From contig JALMGJ010000004.1 in assembly GCA_023362775.1 (NCBI GenBank), positions 51,604,298 to 51,668,297 of the forward strand: a stretch of DNA of 64,000 bases. Reading direction: 5' to 3'. Position numbers and translations under genes: made by a program. Source of the stretch: Charina bottae. Lineage: Eukaryota > Chordata > Lepidosauria > Squamata > Charinaidae. Within the stretch, counting starts at the first letter, position 1. Every line of letters starts with the position of its first letter. The notes beneath the pieces were generated by a model. It saw only the letters and a list, made by a program, of their open reading frames with translations, was not told the origin of the DNA and made no database searches. Shown one piece after another: positions 1 through 62,656 of the stretch.

Positions 1-1110
1 GTTACCCACCACTGGTGGAATCACAAGCTGAATTCTCCATTACCAAGAATCAGGCAGGAGGGCTGCTAATGAAATCTGTACAGTCATCAGCTAATCAGCA
101 AGCTACAGAGCTACAGTCAAAAGTTGTGCCTTCAAAGCAGATTCTTCATTCAGATAGCATGGAGATGGAACCCGAAACCATGGAAACAAAATCTGTTACT
201 GAATATTTTAGCAAGCTGCATATGGGGTCTGCAGTATATTCTTGCACTACTAAACGTAAAAGTAAGGGGATTGATGGGGAAGGGAAAGCTATTCTTGATG
301 GCAGTGCTGTTACGAAAAAAACAGGGACTGATGAGCAAAAGGGTAAAGCTCTGTCCTCAAGGGAGGGTCAACGTATAAGCACTTTTAATGCAGAGAGAAC
401 TGCCTTTCGCAAGGACAGTCAAAGATGGTATGCTGTTTTAGATGAAGGGGCAGTAGAGAAAACAGACCTGGAAACAATGAATGGAAAGAGTGTTCCAAGA
501 GTTTCCAGTCTTGGGAAAGCAGATATGAACTGTAAAGATGAAAGGCATCCCGAGATTGATCACAGTACTGTTTTAGGGCGTGGGCTAGATGAACATTTTG
601 TGCCTGGTGCAACTACTTTGCCTTTATCCAAAGACCGAAATGATTCTGAAGATACTAATTTATCTGCAGATGATCATCTTTCAAAGCTTCCAGAAGCAGA
701 ACACAGTATGATTGGATTGTGCGAGTATCACTTAGCTAAACGCATGTCCTCCTTGCAGAGTGAAGGCCACTTTTCCCTGCAAAGCTCACAGTGCTCTTCG
801 GTGGATGCAGGATGCAGTACAGGCAGCAGTACATGTGGAACTCCTGTCGAATCTCCTCTTTGTACCTCTGAGGTTAAGCACATTATGCCTGAAACATCAG
901 GAAAAAGCATCAGTTATATTCCAATAGAAGACAGAGCTGCCATGCATCCCAACCATGGAGCAACATATAAGGAGCTGCATCAGCAGTCTGAAACTGTATG
1001 CCACAGAATGGTTGTGCCTGCTCTGCATTCTGCAGTTAATTCTGCTGACCCTTTATTTGGGACTTTAAAAGATGGATGTCACAGGATTCCCAAGATTAAA
1101 GAAACTACAG
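1..1110 (+). CDS. FRMPD4: FRMPD4 penultimate coding exon (partial at left edge)
   Basis: Open from the window edge in the frame with codons at 3, 6, 9 and so on ([12 protein letters not shown]). It ends at a consensus donor: ACTACAG followed by GTATGG at 1111. If not spliced, the frame runs four more codons (GMVA) and stops at 1122-1124, giving a possible alternative C terminus. Composition is that of a disordered linker rich in Ser, Thr and Lys; no folded domain is visible. Confidence 0.85.
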
Positions 1111-4100
1111 GTATGGTAGCATGAAACCATTAATCTGATTATGTACTGTCTAAAACTATTGAAGTAAACAGGAGTACAGGTAGTCCTCGCTTAGCGACAA
1201 CAATTGGGACTGTCAACTTTGTTGCTAAGCGTCACAGCTGCTAAGCGAAACATCACGTGACCACGGCGGACTTATGATATCACTTCCCATTTGGTCGTTA
1301 AGCGAGACATCACATGACCACAACTTGCAATTTTACTGCCGGCTTCTCCATTGACTCTGCTTGTTGGAAGCCGGTTGTGAAGTGCAACAATGGCAATCAC
1401 ATGACCACAGGGATGCTGCAACGGTCATAAATGTGAGGACTGGTCGTAAAGGTACTTTTTCAGTGCCGTCATAACTTCAAACAGTCGCTAAACAGGACAG
1501 TCGTTAAGCAAGGTCTACCTGTATCCTTGTTGTTAAAATGTTATTAAGACTATTTCATACATACAGTAATAAAAAAAACCCTCAATTTGTACATTAGATG
1601 GGATGAGGTACTGGAACTTTGGAGAGAAAATATACACAGACAGACTTGAAATAATAATTGCAAACTAGACATTTTAAAACAATGTATCCAATATATTGGT
1701 GTAAATAGATAAAATTTATAGATAATCTCCAGCATACATTCAGTGACCATGTAAGAGAGCAGTAGGATTATATGGCTAGCCATTCCCCTTCTGGGCTAAT
1801 ATTTCCCAATACTTATACCTTTGCTTTATATACAGACAGAAGTACTTGTATGGAGCTCCTCTAAAAGTGCAGGAACTTTCCTTGGCTTTTGGGGGTTCTC
1901 ATTTACATGGAGGAGCTTTACAAGTTCATCTGTACAATCATAGCCTAATCATGCTGGCATCAAATTACATAATTGCTGGAGCATAAATGGCTATTATAGG
2001 CATTAATGTGGCTTGAAGTGAAATTAACCCATGGAATTCCTCATGTTATTTTATATAACTTTATCTATGCTTAAAATGAAAGTCTTTTGCACAGTCACAC
2101 ATACCCATGCTCTCTCTCTCTCGATGTGTAACTGCAGCTTTAATTGCACTCTGATTTATTGTATCTGCCATCTAGAAGCACTAATGGGAGTACACAGCCG
2201 TAGCACCTAAAGGCTGAATTTAGAGGGTGAAAGGTGGGGGTTCTCCGTCTTCCTGTCCCAGAAATCCTTGGGGTTTTATATACCTTGGCCCATCCTGGTG
2301 CAGTAGCCTGATAGATTACAACTACCGCCACCTACTGTATCTGCTTAAGGGATGCCTTTACTGGCACCCTCCCACTTAAGCCAGTATGTGGCACGGTATG
2401 TTCACCCAAAATTTGAATACTTACTTGCCAGTAACTGAGAATATTAGTAATAATAATAACAACAACAACTACAAAACTCTGTAGTGTCACCTCCTGGTCC
2501 TGGTAGCTTTGAGGCATGGTGTCAGGAAAAAAAAATCCATATCTTTGTTTGAGGAGGTAGAACAAAAGGATACAGTATCAGTTTAAAATCAATTTTATTA
2601 AAGATAAAAAAAAGGAACTAAGACACTGCTCAAATGCCTTGATATTCCCCTGAAATATAGATACTCAAATGCCCAGAACAATCGCAAGTGGATGAAATAA
2701 GGCACCGAGTGATGATAAAACCCCAAACAGCCTTTTAGAATCAATGTCCTATAAAATGCTGTGGGGGGGGGACAGGTGTGGATCCACAACGGGTGGGATC
2801 TACTGTACATCTCCAAGAGCTGAAGATGTAACAAACTGACGAACAACTGACTTCGATTTGCACAATAAACTTCAGATAGAAACGTTACTAGAGACAATTA
2901 CTAAAAACAATCAAAGATCAAATGCAATAAAAGATGTTCTACTTAGAAAGCAAAGGAGATTATTCTCTGTATGATAGATTTGTACATTGGCTATCTGCAG
3001 CCAGTTTGGGAATTGTCTTGTTTAACTGCAGGTGGCAAATCTGAGAGTGAATACAGGTTGCCCATTCACTACAACATATACATTTTTCAAATTGATTAAT
3101 TAACATAAAGCTAACTGCATCACTAATATATGTAGTTAACGTATTTTGTAAAAATCTGATAATGTTGATATTTGAAGCACATTTTAGAAAACAAACTTTT
3201 TGTAGATTATAGTGATAAAAACAAAGCAATTAGAACTTTTCTGTTATTGAAGAGGAAGCTCAGATTTTCCAGCATGTTTTTAAAGGAACAAGCAAATACG
3301 TGCAGTATGTCATCTAAATCATAGAAATATGAAAATATGAAAAAACTAATTCAGAATAAATATATGATTAATCATTCTGAATTTGTAATAGGGTTAAGGT
3401 TTCATTAATCATGATTCAGCTGTTAGCCCTAGTGATCCTAGTGTCCTAAATGATGACAGAAACATTTTTTTCCCCATTTATATCAGTGTCCCAATTTGGC
3501 CACCCTCTTGATGTGTGAACCAATTCTTCAGCCACACAGCCATTGATGAAAATTGTGGGAGTTGAAGTCCACACATCTGGAAGTTATCTGGGTTGGAAAA
3601 CACTGGTTTTATATTGACAAGGCTATGGATGCTATGTACGACTTTGCAAAAGTTATACGCATAGGTCAAATAGTTCACCAAAACATAATGGCAGATTCAT
3701 CCATAGGAGACAATGGGCTGAAAACAGCATACTTACCTCTCACTGCAAGCATACTGACTAAGAAGATCCCAGTGTAGTCAGTGTAGTGCTATATTACTTT
3801 AGAAGCATCCACCATGCACATACCAAAGACATTATTGGCCTCTTGAAACAAAAAGCACACTAAATGGGTTGGCCCACTCCCCTCTTGAGCAAACTACCTG
3901 ATGTACAAAAGAATGGAAACAGATGTTAAAGCCATGTGAAGTTGACCCTGAATACATATGGTTGCATGTAAAAGTTGAGGCACCCTGGGTCAAATTGTAT
4001 TTTTCAGTTAATCCCCAACTGACCGAAGTTGACACACCCTTTACATGGTTCAAAGTTAAACACGGCATTTTTCTACAAATCTGAATGCATACCTATGATT

Positions 4101-6673
4101 TATGAACAGTTGTTTACTTTTTTTAATTGAAGATCAACTGGCACCCACTGCCTGCAGCCCCCAAGGTGGCTGCCACCCCTACCTTGACCATATTTCCATC
4201 ACTGAGTGATATTCTAGAAGAGGGTTGGGCCAGCTGTTGATGACAGAGAGGTGCATTCTTTTTGTTCAGTTCAATCTTCAAAGCTTACGGGGACAGAACA
4301 GCAAGCAGAGAGGGGTGAGGCTGATATTTGCGGCTCTTTGGTGCTTTTTTGAAAGTGGAGGTTTTGATTTTAGAAGGTGAGACAAATTGGAAAAAATCAC
4401 AACCAAATTTCAGCATTTTCCAACTAATTTGGGTAGTGCTGTGTGAAAGCCCACACAAAAAGGGCTGCAAGGGACTTGTAAGCTACTAGCTGCCTGATAT
4501 ATTTAGTATCTGGATGAGAGTCCACTTAGTTATCAGAATTTAAGAATTGCTTTCTGAGTAAGATCAAAAGTCTTTGGTCTTTAGCACTGTATTTCAAATA
4601 ATGTATCACCTTGCTGCCTCTGAGAAGCTCACAATCTGAACACAAAGCAAAAAATCCTTTCCTAATGGTCATCTCAAGCATCTGTGACTCAGCAGTAGAC
4701 TTCTCTTGTGTGTAGAAGTCCCATTAGCATTCATGGCCAATAGAGCTTTCTTCTATGAACTCCTTTAAAGCAAGCCAAACATTTTAGAAAGAGGTAGATA
4801 GAAGTTGTTAAAGAAATAATAGAACACTATGCTATTGTGAAGGTCAAGGCCATCTTCAGAATGTTGTGCAAATAGGCTTTGGGTCTCTTACTTAAAGAGA
4901 AATAATAATAATGCTGGTGCATGACTATTTGGAGATGGCAGAAAGGAAATGGTATCTAATTGGTTATTTGTAATATCAAGGATGAGAAATCTTGTGTTGA
5001 GTAAAGCTTCATTTAATGAGAGGGGAGCAAAGGCCATAGGGTGGCATGATGATACCAAATAGAATATGCATGCCATTCAATAGCAATATAATAGGTATAC
5101 TATTCAAATTCGAAAGCCAAGAAAAAGTCCAGTTTTTATATTATGCCTGTCTTAAGCAACAAGCCTGATTTAACAGTTTTGGTTGTTCTAATGATCTCTT
5201 CTAAAAGAGCCATAATTAAATGTGTTGGTTACACAGTATCAATTTAGCCTTAATAAAAATGAATACGATAAGACTGAAGTGTTTAGACATTAAATTGTTG
5301 TTTTTTAGATTCTTAATTATTCTCTCTGTTCTTCTACTACCCCTAGTGTAGCTTTCACAGAGCCTGCGAGTGAAAGACAAGGAGGCATGCCTTCAGCTTT
5401 TCCTAAACAGCCCAGAGCTGGTTCCATCCTGCTATCATCCTACATTCACTCAGAATCAAAGGTGCCAAGTCAAAACCAAGACTCTTTTGATGTTCCCAAA
5501 GTCAACCTGTCAGGTGGGGTAGCAGTCAGTTTATGGCCATATGATACAATGGGAGGAAGCCTCAGAATACCACACAAGAAAAAGGTTTTGCGACGCAGCA
5601 GCAGTGTCACTGCAGAAACTACAGGCATTGAGATGTTTCTTGGGAAGGAGAAAGCTGCAGTCAGTGTATTACGTTCAGACATTTCTGAAGCATACAAATC
5701 AAAATCAGAAAAAAGAGGAGAACTTCCTCTGGGCAAAAAGCTATCAAAAAGTTATTCCAAAAGTTCTGTGAACATCAGCATGAACAGTAGAAGACCTTTC
5801 CTCTTGAATGCTGTCCAAAAGGAGCCCAAGCAATACAGAACGTTGCCATTACGAAAGCGAGATGCTAGCAACTGGAAATGCCGCAGCCCTTTTAGCTCTT
5901 GTTTCCTAATGACAGGGAATGCTGAAGACGATGATGAAATTGGATATGCAGGCAGCACTCAGCTCTCCTGCCTCTGTCATCCAGAGATACCGTGCACCCC
6001 CGTAGAAGAATTAACTACTCAGACTTCTTCCACTGAGAATGAGGAAAAGAAGGGGAAAGGTGTAGAGGCCCTCAGAGAAGCAGAAAACAATCAAGAGTGC
6101 AAAAGCAGAAGCAGTCAACCAGATCTCAGCAACACGTCCTTTGATGCACAAATTGCAAGGCTCAGTGTCATGAAAGAGAAGAATTATGCAGTGCCTGATG
6201 GGTTTCTTGCAGCACAAAAGGATGCCAATGAGCTACTCTGTTTGGTCCGGTCAAGTGTGGGGAAGAAGGGGGATCATCCAGAAACATATGACCTTAAACT
6301 CTCTCAGTACAAACAACTGTTATCTGTAGAATCACAACAGTTGGGAAGTGCCTGCAGGAAAATGGCCATGGCTGAAAAAAGCCCAGAGGAAATGCTTGTA
6401 GCAATGACTTCAAGCTTTCAAGTTCTCTGTTGCTTAACAGAAGCCTGCATGCGTTTAGTTAAAATCATGAACTCTGAAGCACAGCAGGAGGAGATTGTAG
6501 CGAAAGTAGATGAGGTTGTAATCAACTACATTTCTCTTCTAAAGGCTGCAGAAGCAGTGTCTGGAAAGAGTTCAAGTGACTCTAGCATCAAACTTTTGGC
6601 TCGTCATTCGACTACCATGGCCACTATTGTAAGCACACTAACACGTTCTCTTAAAATGCTTTTAAATAAATAA
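1..6673 (+). CDS. FRMPD4: FRMPD4, C-terminal part (two coding exons; 5' part outside window)
   Basis: Coding exons are 1-1110 (open at the left edge) and 5361-6673. FRMPD4 (Preso) is a WW/PDZ/FERM scaffold of dendritic spines that binds PSD-95 and group I mGluR complexes; those N-terminal domains lie upstream of the window. The first exon carries the serine-rich linker with the family block [20 protein letters not shown]. The last exon carries the conserved C-terminal region shared by FRMPD1/3/4, including [20 protein letters not shown]. The exon 1 donor (after 1110) leaves one base of a codon and the acceptor at 5359-5360 supplies two, so the frame is kept ([12 protein letters not shown]). 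FRMPD4 is preferred over its paralogue FRMPD3 because the next gene is clearly PRPS2; FRMPD3 sits beside PRPS1 in mammals. Confidence 0.88.
1177..1521. mobile_element. Mariner/Tc1-type MITE, copy 1
   Basis: A 345-bp non-autonomous element. Its ends are inverted repeats: the left begins CAGGTAGTCCTCGCTTAGCG and the right end reads the same with a few mismatches in reverse complement (about 20 bp). It is flanked by TA on both sides (1175-1176 and 1522-1523), as expected for the TA duplication of Tc1/mariner elements. The interior has several internal copies of a motif like GTCGTTAAGCGA and ACATGACCAC. No coding capacity. Confidence 0.72.
3550..3605. mobile_element. hAT MITE fragment (right half)
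   Basis: Matches the right half of the palindromic MITE at 23413-23536: GGGAGTTGAAGTCCACAC followed by a GTTGGAAAACACTG terminus. The left half is missing or too diverged to see. Confidence 0.5.
5361..6673 (+). CDS. FRMPD4: FRMPD4 terminal coding exon
   Basis: Starts after the acceptor TTTCACAG and reads through without interruption to TAA at 6671-6673 (about 437 codons in this exon). The first half is Ser/Lys-rich linker. The last ~150 residues form a helical conserved block (from about [20 protein letters not shown] to the end) typical of FRMPD1/3/4 C termini. It ends in KMLLNK, so there is no class I PDZ-ligand C terminus on this splice form. It lacks frameshifts or stops. Confidence 0.85.
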
Positions 6674-14172: not shown

Positions 14173-16369
14173 TACCTTTAAGTTTCTTTCTGACATACCC
14201 AATTCCACTTCCATATCACATTGTGTGCTAAAGCACACATTCTTATGAATTCCCATTTTTATTTCTTTTGAAAAACATTCATTCCTTGCAGTAAACCACA
14301 TTCTACTCATTGCCTTTCTACTATCCTTAGGATATTTCAACATATTCACAGCAGTTATAATTACCTTTCATTATCTTTTTTCCTTGGGTTCCAACCTGTA
14401 TAGCATTCTTTTCAAATGAACTCCTTTGATTTCATTTGAATTCTTATTCCCATACAAATCTCTAAAATTGTATTTCCATCATTCACTCAGTTCAATTTCA
14501 TCCCAAAACATAACTCCACTCATAGTCGTTGAGAGTCAGGCAGCATACAAGTTTAATAAATTATTATTATTACATTGTTTTAACTCCATTCATTCTGCTG
14601 GTGGCTTTTCTCCTACTCCAAAGCATTTTTAAAAATGTCTTAATATAGTGTCCATGTCTGTAACAGTTACCTTTTCTGTACTCCATCATCTTGTTTCCAC
14701 CCATCTATTCATGCCTAAGAGAATATCTGTTTCCCCCAGATCCCATTTATTCAGAAGGTTTAGCAATTTTTCCCAAAACTCTTTCCTTGTTGTTTCATTA
14801 TTACTATTCCCTAGAACACGGGTCGGCAAACTTTTTTATGCCAGGAGCCATTTTGACATGCTCGAGGGCATTTTGACATGCTCGAGAGCCAGGGGGCGGG
14901 GTTTGCGGGCGGGAGCCAATCGCATGGAAGGGGGCGGGGTTTGCGGGCGGGAGCCAATCGCGCACACTTAGGGCCTGCTGCCGCCATGCCCGCCACGCCC
15001 ACTGCATTGCCCGCCGCCGACACCACCACGCACACCATGCCCGCTGCCACGCCATGTCCACCACTGCACCTCCCCCGGGGTCCTCGCTGCTCCCGCCGCC
15101 GCTCCTTACTGCCTTCCTTTTTCTCTCCCTCGCCGGCACCCACCACCCCTGCCCCACCTCCGCCCACCCTTCTCCTCCCTCCCCCTCACAGAGATTTCGT
15201 CTGTATCTCCTTCTTCTGTCTTCTGTCTGCCTGTCTCCTTCGAAGCAAGCAAGCACGCACGCAAGCGAGGAAGAAGCCGCTCTTTCTCTCTTCCTACGTC
15301 CTATGCCTTTCCCTCCACCGTTTGGCATATTTCCACGCCCCCCTCGAGACTGGCGCGGCCTGAGGCGGCGGCTATGCCCCCTACGGTGGGCGAAGGCGTG
15401 CGCACGTGCGTGGGGGCAGGGGGAGCAAGCAAGCGCGCAAGCGAGGGAGAAGCCGCTCTTTCTCTACTCTGAATTAGATGCACGGGGTGCCTGTCGGGAT
15501 CGAGACTCTTTGTCCCACATTAGCACTTCACTTCCACTCACGGAGTTTCGCTGCGGGCAGTCGGGGCTTCCTTACGAACGGGGAGAGAGTCAGTCCCAGA
15601 CACTTGTTTTCAGCTGGGCTCCTTCTGCAACTCCTACGGGCCTCGTGGCTTTTGTTCTTTCTAGCTCTCTTGAAGTGGGGAGATATAAAATGTTCTTTTG
15701 TGCTATGTAGGATTGAGTGTGTATGTGTGGGGGGGGGGCTTTTTTTTAAAAAGCAGTCTGGACTTCCAGCAGTAAAAATGACCACTGATCCTTTTGAGCG
15801 TTAAGAGGGGGAGAAAAGGAGGGCGGCGCGAAGTTACACAAATAGGTTCGGTTTTGCCCTCTCCCCACCCCCACCCTCCACCACCCAGGTGGCAGTTGAT
15901 CTGCAGAGCTGCTTTGCGAGAGGAGGAACAGCGGGAACCCCTTTCTGCTTGCATCTGCAGCCCTCGCTTGCCTGACTTGGGAGTAATCATATCGGATTCC
16001 GTGGAGGGAACTTGCCTGCGGGTGGATAGGCGGGCAGCAGCCTTTTCCTTTCGCTTTCGCTCTCCCCAAATTGCGTAAACTGAAAGCCGAGGCGAATAAG
16101 CCCCCGCATCCACCTTTTCGGGTTTTGGCTCCCGTCCTCTTGAGCATGGAAATTCGCGGCTGCGGAAGCCAAAGCAGACAAGCTGTGGCGGCGCCAAGTG
16201 GTTACCTGGGACCGCTTTGGGAGTGATTACCCCCTCCTCCCGCCCTTCAGAGCCTGGGTATCGCCTTAGCAACCCCAGGATCCCTGGCTGGCCACTTCTC
16301 GCAGCCCTCCCCGTCCAGAGGCAGCGCTCCCGAGCCCCGTTCCACGCCAGGAGACTGCGACTCGCCTGC

Positions 16370-16766
16370 GAGCCACACTCAAGGGGCTCCTTGGGCTCCT
16401 TCCCAACTCCCAGGGGGCCCTCGGAGACTGCTGCCCACAGCGCTGCCTAGGAGCCTTTCAAGGCAAAGGCGGCTGGAGAGCCCTAACGCTGCTGGTGGGC
16501 AGCGACTGCTCGGCGTCTGCGCAGTGGGGGAAATGTTGGCTGAGGTGTGGCTGGCTTTGTCCGCTTGTTTCTTCGCCGCGCTGCTGGCTCTGCGAGCGCC
16601 GCCGCTGAAAGCTCCGCCTGTGGCTCTCTCGCTCAACCTCGCCGGGCTCTTTCAGGACCTGATCCAGTACGGGAAGACCAAGACCGCCTGTGGGCAGCGC
16701 CCTGCCCTTCTGCAGACTTTTGATGTTCCCAAGAGAACCCGCACAAGAGAGCCACACTCAAGGGGC
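16370..16766 (+). repeat. 18-bp direct repeats bracketing the SRD5A3 fragment
   Basis: GAGCCACACTCAAGGGGC occurs at 16370-16387 and again at 16749-16766. The second copy is part of the hAT right terminus (also present, slightly different, in the 53674-54260 element). The first lies just upstream of the SRD5A3 5' region. The 361 bp between them contains the SRD5A3 exon. Confidence 0.7.
16533..16735 (+). pseudogene. SRD5A3: Captured SRD5A3 first coding exon inside a hAT element
   Basis: The frame from ATG 16533 reads about 67 codons of a hydrophobic N-terminal helix followed by GLFQDLIQYGKTK and FDVPKR. This is the N terminus of SRD5A3, polyprenol reductase / steroid 5-alpha-reductase 3 of the ER membrane, which acts in dolichol synthesis for N-glycosylation; the human protein has FQDLIRYGKTK and AFDVPKRYF at the matching places. 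The similarity stops at KR, where transposon terminus sequence begins within a few bases. No other SRD5A3 exon is present, so it is a fragment. The frame is intact and stays open into the hAT end, so a fusion peptide is possible on paper. Upstream sequence to ~15.5 kb is GC-rich and may be the gene's own promoter. Confidence 0.78.
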
Positions 16767-17059
16767 CAAAGAGCCGCATCTGGCTCGCGAGCCGCCATTT
16801 CCGACCCTTGCCCTAGAACATAACATGCATCACAAACACCAACCTATGCATTTCTATTTTCATACACATCCACAACTGTCTCAACATCAATTCATACTTT
16901 CTGAAGCTACACCTTCCATTAATCAATTCTCCAAAAATTCAGACCACATTCACTCTGATCTATTACATTTATCAGCCGTGATGGGCAACAGAGGTCAATA
17001 TCCACTGGCCCATCTGGTGATAACCATGATATATGGAAGATTGCAACATAGAATGTAAG

Positions 17060-17243
17060 ATGGCTGTTGTGGGTCTTCCGGGCTGTGTGGCCGTGTTCTG
17101 GAAGTTGTGGTTCCTAACGTTTCGCCAGCATCTGGCCACAGATGCTGGCGAAACGTTAGGAACCACAACTTCCAGAACACGGCCACACAGCCCGGAAGAC
17201 CCACAACAGCCATCGAACTCCGGCCGTGAAAGCCTTCGACAAT
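17060..17243 (-). mobile_element. Fold-back Penelope-like (PLE) terminal-repeat pair, family A, copy 1
   Basis: Arms beginning TGGCTGTTGTGGGTCTTCCG are inverted about a centre near 17138 (GCCAGCATCTGGCCACAGAT). A one-sided 30-bp tail with CGGCCGTGAAAGCCTTCGAC lies at 17214-17243. A 14-bp duplication, ACATAGAATGTAAG, flanks it (17046-17059, 17244-17257). This is the shortest-armed of three copies in the window. The tail plus inverted LTR-like layout and variable 12-15 bp duplications fit known PLE insertions better than any cut-and-paste class. Confidence 0.65.
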
Positions 17244-17257
17244 ACATAGAATGTAAG

Positions 17258-19051
17258 GATAGTAAATGGTAAAAAGCATGAATTAACAAATAAAATGAAA
17301 GAAACCTCAATCTTAAAAGAAAGTGGAAAGATGTAGGCATTAAGTATTTGTTCACAACATCAGTTTACCTAACAAAATTCTCATGATAAGCATAAGTAGT
17401 AGTAGTCATAGTTATTTAGGGCCAGTACAGGAAAATCAAAATTACACACAATATAAACCAATATCACAATAAAACAATATAATAATCAATGTAAGAGATT
17501 TACTAATATAATAATACAAACAATTCCTAATGTTAGTACAACTTTAGTATAAAGCTAAGTGAATACAGTAATGAGAGAGAAGGCTTTTCCAGCTTCATAA
17601 GCATTTAAAGGCCTTTTTAAATTTAAATAGGACTCCGATTGTAATTCAAGGGCCAGTTGATTCTAACAAGCAGAACTTAAATGGAAAAAAGCCCTAAAAC
17701 ATGAGGTGGCAGTTTTAACATGAGGAAAAACCAATTGACCTTGATTTCACGATTCAGTCAAACACACAGGAGCAAGACGGGAAATAAAGTTTTTCAAATA
17801 ACTGGGTGTTTCTATATGCATGGGCCAGAAGGTCAGCACCAGCAAATTAAGCTGATAACACTTCCAAAGATTCAACCAACGTAAGGCATGATGAAAAGAA
17901 GGATTAGGGAGATATTGGGAGATATCTAGGATCGCATGAAGTGGTCTATTTTGGATATGAACCAATGGGCAGAGGACAGTTAGGAAGGCCTGCCTATTAC
18001 CACGGTAATCCAGCTGGGTCACCAGCAAGGCATGGGCTGACTGCTTAGCCATTTCTAAAGTAAGACGTGAACAAATTCTTAAGATATTTATAAGACTCTA
18101 AGCTGGCATTCTGCAGGCTAGAGGAAAGAGGAGCAATGCAGATCATGCATGGCACACATGAATCTTTGCATTTTGTTGGTCTGAAGCAATTAGCATTAAC
18201 GTGACATGCATTTACTCATCTGTTTTGCAAAGTATGATCAACCGTGCAATAATGCGTCACTGAAAAATGTAACATTTCTTTCCTCAAAAGAGTAACAGTT
18301 ATCCATCCCAGCTGGAGACAGATAAAAATTACAATAAAGATGACTATTTTATTCCAAGGATAGATCTCCATGTATTTTGGACTTCAATTCCCAACCTCCG
18401 GAAACATAAACAGTGGAAAGGGATTGCAGGAGCAGGAGCAAAAAGCCCACAAGGGCACCAAGTTGCTTACTTTGGCTTTACTCATTTACCATTCAGGATC
18501 TTGTAAAATATAGAAGAATATACCACTAACCCTGCCCTAAGGTATAGAAGTAAACATTTGAAGCAACAATTAAGAAATTATAATATTATGCTCCTTCCTT
18601 CTTACTCCCAAATATTTTTAACTGATTCAGCCTAATTACTTATTTGGGAATATATTGCATTCTTTAAAAAAAACTTGTCTAAAATTGGGTTGTTGTTTTC
18701 AGTATGATTAAAAAAGAGACACCCCAAAACAATATTTGAATGCCCTGTGTCGGGGTCAGCCCAAGAACAACGAGTCAGTGTATTCCAAATCTCCAGTTCT
18801 TTATTGCTCCCACCATACATACAGAATCTTGCCAGACTAAAGCTATCCTAACTAACCCAAGGGGAAATAACCTAGGAGAGTCTAGGGCAGGGCTACTCTG
18901 ACTCTCTTTGACTCCCTGCCATGACTCTCTAGACTGCGAGTCCTCTTATCTCCTTGGAATGCGCTCCCTCCTTCCTGAGAACCAGCGGCAGCCTCAAAAT
19001 CCACCACACCCTGTCTGTGTTTGCCCAAGGACTACCACATACTGTCCCATT
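17258..19051. other. Intergenic, no gene seen
   Basis: AT-rich. About 17560-18120 includes phrases (CCACGGTAATCCAGCTGGGT, GGATCGCATGAAG) that look like an old LINE 3' region on the minus strand, too diverged for a family call. About 18740-19040 looks like an interspersed repeat (TCCAGTTCTTTATTGCTCCC), class unknown. Confidence 0.45.
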
Positions 19052-24349: not shown

Positions 24350-50146
<25,797 letters not shown>

Positions 50147-52900: not shown

Positions 52901-53673
52901 CCGATTGATTGGTGGTGATATTTAGCTCATTTGAGGAAGGACAAGGACATAATTCACTTGCATTTAAACTGTTGGACATGTTGGGATATCAAGACCCCTC
53001 AGTTGACCCATTTTGCCTACCTAGTCATCCAAGAAAAAAAGCAACAAGAAAAGTGAACCTCTCTTTTACTGTACTAATAGCCAAGACCCCACAGTGCAGA
53101 ATACAACTCCCTGGCACTCATCTGCGGCACCTAAACAAAACCTTCTGTTGTTTCCCTGACCAATGGGGAAGGGAGTAGTGATACCAGATGTTACTCAGAA
53201 AAAGCCTCTCTATTCCAACAAGTGATTTTTGATCCAGTTGTTTTGTATATTACACTGTGCAAATGGGATGAATATCTTCTGCCAGCCCTCAATTCCTTAA
53301 AGGATTTAAAATATATAACAATCATTAGCATTATATTTATCACTTGGTTAATTGTCCCATGCCAATCACCTGTTTGCTGAACTTTTGGCTTCTACTATTG
53401 CTGTGCTCACAACTCAGACATAATTACTAATGTTTACTGTCATGGGTTCAGGAGACAAACCCAGGCAGAACATGAGAACAACTCTCGTTGGGAGCTAAAA
53501 AACAAGAGCTTGTTACCAATGTGCACTACAAAAATAGACTTTGCTTATTAACTGAGCAGGAGGCCCTTTTTAATTTACTGGACCTTTTACTGTTCGTTAT
53601 ACTCCGTTTCTATACACTTGCTCTCATCCTAATTGATTTAACATTTTCTAGAGCTTAGTGCTATACCTTAGGG
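52901..53673. other. Downstream intergenic, no gene seen
   Basis: AT-rich, without recognised repeats or credible coding sequence. Confidence 0.55.
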
Positions 53674-54260
53674 CAGGGGTGGGGAAACTTTTTTATGCCA
53701 GGGGCCATTTTGACATAACATCACTCGAGGGCCAGGGGGCGGGGTTTGCGGGTGGGAGCCAATTGCATGGAAGGGGGCAGGGTTTGCGGGCGGGAGCCAA
53801 TTGCATGGAAGGGGGCGGGGTTTGTGGGCAGGAGCCAATCACGTGGAAGGGGGCGGGGTTTGCAGGCGGGAGCCAATCGTGCACACTTAGGGCCTGCTGC
53901 CTCCATCCCGCCACGCCCACTGCAGTGCCTGCCGCCACGCACACCATGCCCGCTGCCATGCCTGCCACGCCACATCCGCCACTGCACCTGCCGCTGCCAC
54001 GGCCGCCATGCCCGCCTCCGTACCTGCCCCCGCCATGCCCACCATGCCTGCCGCCACACTGGCTGCCATGCCCAGCATGCTCGCCGCCACGCCCAGCATG
54101 CCTGCCATTGCGCCTGCCTCCACCACGTCCGCTGCCGTGCCTGCCCCCGCCACGCCCGCCACGCCTGCCTGTGCACGCCCGCGTGTGGTATTTTGTGGAA
54201 GAGCCACACTCGGGCCAAAGAGCCGCATGTGGCTCGCGAGCCGCGGTTTGCCAACCACTG
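53674..54260 (+). mobile_element. Short hAT element, relative of the SRD5A3-carrying one
   Basis: Starts CAGGGGTGGGGAAACTTTTT, ends GTTTGCCAACCACTG; perfect 8-bp duplication CCTTAGGG (53666-53673, 54261-54268). The left part has four tandem copies of a ~40-bp unit (GGGGCGGGGTTTGCGGGCGG type). The middle is a degenerate C-rich run of CCGCCACGCC-like units. The right end has GGCCAAAGAGCCGCATGTGG. It lacks the host segment seen in 14817-16810. Confidence 0.85.
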
Positions 54261-54330
54261 CCTTAGGGTTACCATACTTTGCAGGGCCTGTTACATCTTC
54301 ATTCTACCCTTACTTGTCAATTCTCTACCT

Positions 54331-61335: not shown

Positions 61336-61920
61336 TCAGTAGTGTGTGTGGCCTCCACGTGCCTGTATGACCTCCCTACAACGCCTGGGCATGCTCCTGA
61401 TGAGGTGGCGGATGGTCTCCTGAGGGATCTCCTCCCACACCTGGACTAAAGCATCCCCCAACTCCTGGACAGTCTGTGGTGCAACGTGGCGTTGGTGGAT
61501 GGAGCGAGACATGATGTCCCAGATGTGCTCAATTGGATTCAGGTCTGGGGAACGGGCGGGCCAGTCCATAGCATCAATGCCTTCGTCTTGCAGGAACTGC
61601 TGGCACACTCCAGCCACATGAGGTCTAGCATTGTCTTGCATTAGGAGGAACCCAGGGCCAACCGCACCAGCATATGGTCTCACAAAGGGTCTGAGGATCT
61701 CATCTCGGTACCTAATGGCAGTCAGGCTACCTCTGGCGAGCACATGGAGGGCTGTGCGGCCCCCTAAAGAAATGCCACCCCACACCATTACTGACCCACT
61801 GCCAAACCGGTCATGCTGGAGGATGTTGCAGGCAGCAGAACGTTCTCCACGGCGTCTCCAGACCCTGTCACGTCTGTCACATGTGCTCAGTGTGAACCTG
61901 CTTTCATCTGTGAAGAGCAC
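61336..61920 (-). pseudogene. Tc1 transposase, C-terminal DDE part
   Basis: Catalytic domain: [11 protein letters not shown] (first Asp), GSVMVWGGIS, LMQDNARPHVAG (second Asp) and WPARSPDLNPIEHIWD (Glu). There are 34 residues between the second Asp and the Glu: the DD34E signature of Tc1. It ends normally at GGHTHY and is open throughout, but it is separated from the N-terminal part by a frameshift near 61950. Confidence 0.9.
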
Positions 61921-62405
61921 AGGGCGCCAGTGGCGAAGTTGCCAATCTTGTGTTCTCTGGCAAATGCCAAACGTCCTGCACGGTGTTGGGCTGTAAGCAC
62001 AACCCCCACCTGTGGACGTCGGGCCCTCGTACCACCCTCATGGAGTCTGTTTCTGACCGTTTGAGCAGCCACACGCACATTTGTGGCCCACTGGAGGTCA
62101 TTTTGCAGGGCTCTGGCAGTGTTCCTCCTGTCCCTCCTTGCACAAAGGCGGAGGTAGCGGTCCTGCTGCTGGGTTGTTGCCCTCCTACGGCCTCCTCCAC
62201 GTCTCCTGATGTACTGACCTGTCTCCTGGTAGTGCCTCCATGCTCTGGACACTACGCTGACAGACACAGCAAACCTTCTTGCCACAGCTCGCATTGATGT
62301 GCCATCCTGGATGAGCTGCACTACCTGAGCCACTTGTGTGGGTTGTAGACTCCGTCTCATGCTACCACTAGAGTGGAAGCACCGCCAGCATTCAAAAGTG
62401 ACCAA
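61887..62405 (-). pseudogene. Tc1 transposase, N-terminal DNA-binding part
   Basis: Starts upstream of [20 protein letters not shown] (the likely true Met is ~14 residues into the frame). Two helix-turn-helix segments of paired-like type ([34 protein letters not shown]) bind the terminal repeats. The frame departs from the Tc1 family near FAREHK at about 61950, consistent with loss of one base, and runs into a stop at 61887. Confidence 0.88.
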
Positions 62406-62656
62406 ACCATCAGCCAGAAAGCATAGGAACTGAGAAGTGGTCTGTGGTCACCACCTGCAGATCCACTCCTTTATTGGGGATGTCTTGCTAACTGCCTATG
62501 CTTTCTGCCTGTTGTCTATTCCATGTGCACAACAGCATGTGAAATTGATTGTCAATCAGTGTTGCTACCTAAGTGGACAGTTTGATTTCACAGAAGTGTG
62601 ATTGACTTGGACTTACATTGTGTTGTTTCAGTGTTCCCTTTATTTTTTTGAGCAGT

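Follow-up and report, generated by a model that had tools for sequence, protein, structure and literature searches.

SRD5A3 exon 1 inside a multicopy hAT transposon family of the snake Charina bottae

The locus

The window (i.e., the whole 64-kb stretch of Charina bottae DNA analyzed here) contains the 3′ end of FRMPD4 at 3-6670 on the + strand and matches to PRPS2 that span 24350 to 50143, also on the + strand, in seven matching pieces. The FRMPD4 sequence is 90% identical to that of king cobra, the top of 53 matches; the next match is to a bird, at 61%. A complete hAT element occupies 14817-16810. It has the same orientation as PRPS2 and lies 7.5 kb upstream of the first PRPS2 exon, and nothing links the two. 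Judging from an impression of the translations, reading frames at 61336-62447 resemble a putative Tc1/mariner transposase, and a 1043-codon minus-strand frame at 29667-32798 resembles a putative LINE reverse transcriptase ORF. An Rfam search with the window gave no match, and a viral-contig pattern search gave 0 matches. All genome searches were run against the assembly from which the window comes, which has a size of 1.80 Gb in 278 contigs. The features of the element and of a relative in the same window are as follows; type I copies are defined below.

14809..14816, no strand: left target-site duplication CCCTAGAA (nnnTAnnn), from the sequence
14817..15074, + strand: hAT left arm, matching the 53674 relative at 91% of aligned bases
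15081..15543, + strand: hAT internal module, 93-94% identical in L002-L007
15573..16387, + strand: body of a second, abundant hAT subfamily, from genome matches outside exon-1 sites
16370-16387, + strand: fossil right-arm start, the first 18 bp of the second subfamily's right arm, GAGCCACACTCAAGGGGC, from an exact repeat and L079
16388..16507, + strand: 120-bp segment present in all nine type I copies that were read (in L036 and L037 from 16393)
16508..16735, + strand: captured SRD5A3, comprising the coding portion of exon 1 and the 25 bp that precede the ATG, 96% identical to the host locus
16533..16823, + strand: open frame of 67 full SRD5A3 codons, then hAT-encoded residues, with its stop in the flank, from translation
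16736..16744, + strand: junction filler AACCCGCAC between two AAGAG copies, occupying the place of the gene's splice donor
16745..16810, + strand: hAT right arm with terminus CCATTTCCGACCCTTG, from the sequence
16811..16818, no strand: right target-site duplication CCCTAGAA, from the sequence
53674..54260, + strand: 587-bp relative without SRD5A3, flanked by the duplication CCTTAGGG at 53666-53673 and 54261-54268

The window copy is a composite

The element ends are CACGGGTCGG...CCGACCCTTG. An earlier note on this DNA had described CA...TG ends, a perfect 8-bp target duplication, and termini in common with the 587-bp relative, and all three descriptions are accurate: CCCTAGAA flanks the element on both sides, and both ends are shared with the relative. 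With gaps not counted, the two elements are identical at 226/248 aligned bases of the left arm and 56/63 of the right arm, and their left arms also differ by large length differences. A genome search with the left arm gave at least 40 scored matches, of 1575 first-look candidates.

The DNA between the arms had been taken as one “central 1.7 kb insert” from SRD5A3. This does not hold, since only 16508-16735 (228 bp) aligns to the host gene. The module at 15081-15543 is present in six other hAT copies (L002-L007), with different DNA downstream and no SRD5A3 match in their compared DNA. The segment 15647-16387 is found at no fewer than 33 genome places outside exon-1 sites, as well as in seven SRD5A3-bearing elements, among 40 scored of 47 candidates; 29 of those 33 places stop precisely at 16387. 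One member of this second subfamily, L079, reads past the 16387 position into a complete right arm. The 18-bp sequence at 16370 recurs exactly at 16749, where the maximum in 300 shuffles was 13. This repeat had also been considered as the scar of a template switch or as a duplication flanking the exon, but is explained by the fossil right end of the second hAT subfamily, as indicated by L079 and by the stops at 16387. The second-subfamily body and its continuation in L079 therefore identify the type I element as a composite of at least two hATs, one of them with the SRD5A3 exon. The 120-bp segment at 16388-16507 sits between the fossil right arm and SRD5A3.

The captured exon and its parental gene

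The open frame corresponds to exon 1 of SRD5A3: 68 residues align without gaps and are 88% identical to the polyprenol reductase (SRD5A3) of the boa Candoia aspera, and residues 1-68 are 76-81% identical to those of three colubroid snakes. The motifs FQDLIQYGKTK and FDVPKR had thus been correctly assigned to the SRD5A3 N terminus. PDB and Pfam searches with the window frame gave no match. A complete SRD5A3 gene next to the element, which the earlier note would have counted against capture, is not there, with no further SRD5A3 exon found in the 64-kb window.

The parental SRD5A3 is a single gene in five pieces at C100:19420301-19431861, with exon 1 at 19420301-19420507 and the last piece at 19431598-19431861. 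Window positions 16508-16735 correspond to 1476-1703 of the host locus sequence (L069), in which the ATG is at 1501, i.e., the homology of the window copy begins 25 bp before the ATG. In the parent, exon 1 ends in CCCAAGAG|GTAAACG (AAGAG|GTAAACG). The host locus has inverted CCAAT motifs upstream of the ATG, which we take to suggest a promoter rather than a transcript. The alignment to the host locus rules out an SRD5A3 promoter in the window copy.

A family of exon-1 copies

A search of the genome with Candoia SRD5A3 gave 80 matches from 86 candidates, all scored. Of these, 75 are ectopic and limited to exon 1; they represent about 73 sites, spread over 31 contigs (two sites have two matches each). 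Exon 1 of one gene at so many sites excludes chance. An internal stop is present in 8 of the 75 matches, and the frame is open in most. Two copies, at C245:32831819 and C245:32833194, are 1.4 kb apart and have identical scores, and may have arisen by nested insertion or by tandem duplication. With 16388-16740 as a DNA query, at least 40 matches were obtained, scored out of 75 candidates; 11 of the 40, including the window, start at 16388 or 16393, and 29 start at 16508.

The sequence was read for the parent and for 36 distinct ectopic copies. Two of these, L038 and L039, break off within exon 1 and were excluded from the counts, leaving 34 copies. The right junction is the same in all 34: apart from single-base changes it reads CCCAAGAG|AACCCGCACAAGAG, followed by the hAT right arm. 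The exon part ends at the last exon base, and the native donor GT is absent, in every one. AAGAG closes the exon and also occurs in the hAT right arms of the 587-bp relative and L008; the breakpoint carries the 9-bp filler, and the microhomology is five bases only. The proposal that a hAT captured SRD5A3 exon 1, that the package moved by transposition, and that other copies have the same 3′ capture breakpoint is borne out by this junction together with the exon-1 sites and the target duplications.

The 5′ side varies. Native SRD5A3 upstream DNA is present in 25/34 copies, which we refer to as type II. Their parental starts are 1229 (four copies), 1246 (two), 1262 (four), 1270 (one), 1367 (three), 1387 (eight), and 1391, 1395, and 1414 (one each). 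The longest upstream match begins 272 bp before the ATG; in 11 copies the upstream DNA starts 231-272 bp before the ATG, although alignment is poorer at the outermost bases of the 1229 class. Each of the main 5′ start classes has its own upstream DNA. The other nine copies, including the window, are type I, with SRD5A3 only from parental position 1476 (window 16508). L036 and L037 have another segment upstream of 16393. In L037, this DNA upstream of exon 1 (660-1490) includes a 165-codon frame, a possible coding exon, for which Pfam and PDB gave no match.

Two expectations of the earlier note are therefore partly borne out. One host locus and hAT-bounded copies with identical breakpoints had been predicted; there is one parent, and the 3′ junction is constant, but the 5′ starts fall into classes. 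Capture of a promoter fails for the window copy, where the CpG-rich DNA upstream of the short SRD5A3 homology is mostly hAT, but upstream DNA was captured in the family, as the type II copies show.

In a tree of the 228-bp exon segment, type I copies do not form one group, the parent is placed among the copies, and most of the support falls on very short branches, which points either to too short a segment or to sequence exchange between copies. Between the majority sequence of the 34 copies and the parent there are differences at 7/228 positions of the exon segment and, for the 11 copies compared upstream, at 3/201 positions; at the protein level, the majority differs from the host's own SRD5A3 at 4/67 residues. 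Residue E4 is common to the majority sequence and the host SRD5A3; Candoia lacks it, and gecko has it. At the sequence level, this shared residue gives moderate support to a capture that would have happened on the host's lineage. That a snake exon had passed horizontally into a non-snake genome was also considered and is ruled out by the FRMPD4 match to king cobra together with the residue that the copies share with the host's own gene.

Transposition and the hAT group

Both element ends were sought in the 34 copies, allowing at most one mismatch between the 8-bp flanks and without any requirement for TA. The search located both ends in 24 copies, and 20 of these have identical 8-bp flanks. 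The 20 perfect duplications comprise 19 different sequences, all with TA at positions 4-5 (nnnTAnnn). The 10 copies without an end pair come partly from short loci, and include the window, whose duplication was established separately. Among the 24 right ends, 11 read ...GACCCTTG and 13 read ...ACCTCTG or ...ACCACTG; with two right-end forms, the right side has therefore been exchanged too. Twenty loci were retrieved as left-arm relatives. Identical 8-bp flanks bound the element in 18 of them, L028 (itself an SRD5A3 copy) included, and 17 of these flank pairs contain TA.

The motif nnnTAnnn is given as the Buster consensus in PMC3517528, and the 8-bp duplications of the window element (CCCTAGAA) and its relative (CCTTAGGG) both conform to it. 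The constant 3′ junction and the 20 perfect nnnTAnnn duplications indicate that a Buster-like hAT transported the exon on many occasions. The family has the attributes of a Pack-hAT: host gene DNA lies inside hAT arms and has an identifiable parent on C100; one 3′ junction is combined with many different duplications, the 5′ structure varying by class; and the five bases of AAGAG provide breakpoint microhomology.

Other interiors within the same arms

A set of 18 two-ended relatives have in common a left arm of about 380 bp and the right end, and differ in their interiors. By element sharing, the interiors fall into class C (L009-L011), class D (L012-L015, L017, L018, L020, and L025), and class F (L019 and L021-L023), with L016 and L024 each alone. 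Within L009-L025 there are unrelated GC-rich interiors (e.g., L009, L017, L021, L016, and L024), some of them common to several copies. These interiors are possibly further captures of host CpG islands or exons; Pfam searches with four frames and a PDB search with one frame of the other fillers gave no match. It is only slightly less probable than its opposite that this snake hAT lineage is a general-purpose shuffler of vertebrate sequence, like rice Pack-MULEs, with host promoters and first exons taken up, multiplied, and recombined as modules by repeated template switching among its members.

Sequence decay and expression potential

Relative to the 34-copy majority, changes are present at 106/1428 CpG positions (7.4%) versus 39/6324 others (0.62%), i.e., CpGs have changed 12 times faster. 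Coding changes number 55 synonymous and 74 nonsynonymous, the latter including two stops, against 46.5, 78.9, and 3.6, respectively, expected without selection. The copies are related, so the events in both counts are not independent. There is no sign of coding constraint; the copies look young, and the CpG decay suggests that they are methylated in the germ line. In the 25 type II copies, 81% of the 27 parental CpG sites are kept on average.

Beyond the exon, the window sequence has no GT before 16878, and nowhere within 16500-18500 does a site agree with a donor at 8/9 positions. Searches for an SRD5A3-hAT fusion protein found none among 2 and 12 matches (proteins of ~53-168 and 109-346 residues). 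A mobile promoter or first-exon donor has a promoter and a usable donor, and the window copy has neither. The missing donor, the CpG decay, and a frame that evolves as if without selection make it less likely that every copy could serve as a source of chimeric first exons, as had been suggested.

Origin and spread of the family

The window element is very probably one copy of a high-copy, repeatedly re-shuffled Pack-hAT family that arose by DNA-level capture followed by transposition. In a snake ancestor, a non-autonomous Buster-like hAT would have copied SRD5A3 upstream DNA and exon 1 at the DNA level. On the exon side, copying would have switched back to the hAT right arm at the shared AAGAG, leaving the short filler in the place of the donor. 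A hAT transposase acting in trans would then have moved the element to dozens of sites, and the 5′ side would have been replaced again and again by further switches among family members; the lineage that led to the window copy would have received the body of another hAT subfamily in place of its SRD5A3 upstream DNA. In their present state, the copies resemble methylated, neutrally decaying passengers. The sites, the single parent, the shared 3′ breakpoint, the different duplications, the composite structure, and the unconstrained frame are observed; template switching at the DNA level, a first capture that was a single one, the order of events, the transposase, the methylation, and the absence of function are drawn from them.

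The position of the 3′ breakpoint, exactly at the exon boundary in 34/34 copies, could also mean that spliced RNA was involved, with exon 1, or a transcript spliced to the hAT, reverse-copied into the element. We regard this route as unlikely. DNA contiguous with the parent upstream of the ATG is present in 25/34 copies, in 11 of them from 231-272 bp before the ATG, so capture of a spliced exon is not favored; the inverted CCAAT motifs in the host locus point to a promoter and not a transcript; and neither poly(A) nor exon 2 was found at the 3′ junction of the 34 copies. The AAGAG common to the exon end and the hAT right arm is enough for a template switch. The copies likewise do not have the form of processed pseudogenes, in which introns are removed, poly(A) is present, and promoter DNA is lacking. 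Single-copy animal cases are usually read as gap filling in place (PMC8277862), in which the hAT inserted first and the SRD5A3 DNA was copied in later. As an account of this family, that is scarcely credible: with about 73 exon sites, one junction in the 34 copies read, and 19 different sequences among 20 perfect duplications, transposition after capture is needed. The very first capture may nonetheless have been a gap-filling event.

Could the copies be functional, acting as mobile promoters or first exons from which new transcripts, or a small SRD5A3-hAT protein, are made? The mostly open frame (a stop in only 8/75 matches), the upstream DNA of type II copies with its retained CpG sites, and the precedent of bat Helitrons with a NUBPL promoter (PMC4778049) speak for this. 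Against it, the donor is absent in 34/34 copies, CpGs decay, coding changes are neutral, the window copy has no upstream DNA, and the matches examined include no fusion protein. We consider such a role very unlikely, and functional spread of the copies is not supported, given the missing donor, the CpG decay, and the unconstrained frame.

Comparison with known systems

No report of an SRD5A3-carrying hAT family was found in the open-access literature, searched for SRD5A3 with squamate or transposon and for Pack-hAT or Pack-TIR, with relevance judged partly by title. The accessible text of a review of snake repeats (PMC8303610) mentions hATs, but words with the stem “captur” do not occur in it. 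Vertebrate cases in which cut-and-paste transposons captured genes have been documented before, and the animal survey of Tan et al. 2021 (PMC8277862) includes, as described there, only four multicopy families among reference genomes, with a worked example of three copies. The SRD5A3 family, with one parent, a fixed 3′ breakpoint, and graded 5′ breakpoints, documents capture, amplification, and re-shuffling in many replicates. Within a single genome, it allows a direct test of template switching against RNA and of filling in place against transposition. It is also a warning to annotators of about 73 stray SRD5A3 “first exons” in the Charina bottae genome.

Plant Pack-TYPE elements, as presented in PMC8903248, resemble the SRD5A3 hAT in being non-autonomous DNA transposons that shuffle coding DNA; their hosts are plants, whereas the SRD5A3 hAT is a vertebrate family for which one captured exon has been demonstrated. 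The nearest functional parallel, as far as the account in PMC4778049 goes, is the bat Helitron with the NUBPL promoter and a splice donor. Like the SRD5A3 family, HelibatN3 of Myotis bats is a vertebrate DNA transposon that amplified a captured promoter and N-terminal coding sequence. However, HelibatN3 is a Helitron with six codons and a splice donor, while the SRD5A3 hAT has about 68 codons without a donor and, in the window copy, no promoter.

The closest structural comparison is with animal Pack-TIRs. Tan et al. report 370 cases in 100 genomes, 208 of them in hATs, with a median filler of 224 bp; their multicopy examples include the frog hAT-N8_XT with the CAPSL 5′ UTR at three places and the fly Ssk-FB4 with four copies. 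In line with the survey's description of animal Pack-TIRs and Pack-hATs, the SRD5A3 family has hAT arms around host DNA, microhomology at the breakpoint, and a multicopy class that transposed. It differs from the Pack-TIRs described there in its roughly 73 sites, in carrying the coding part of a first exon, and in the repeated exchange of its 5′ side, including the fusion of hAT subfamilies.
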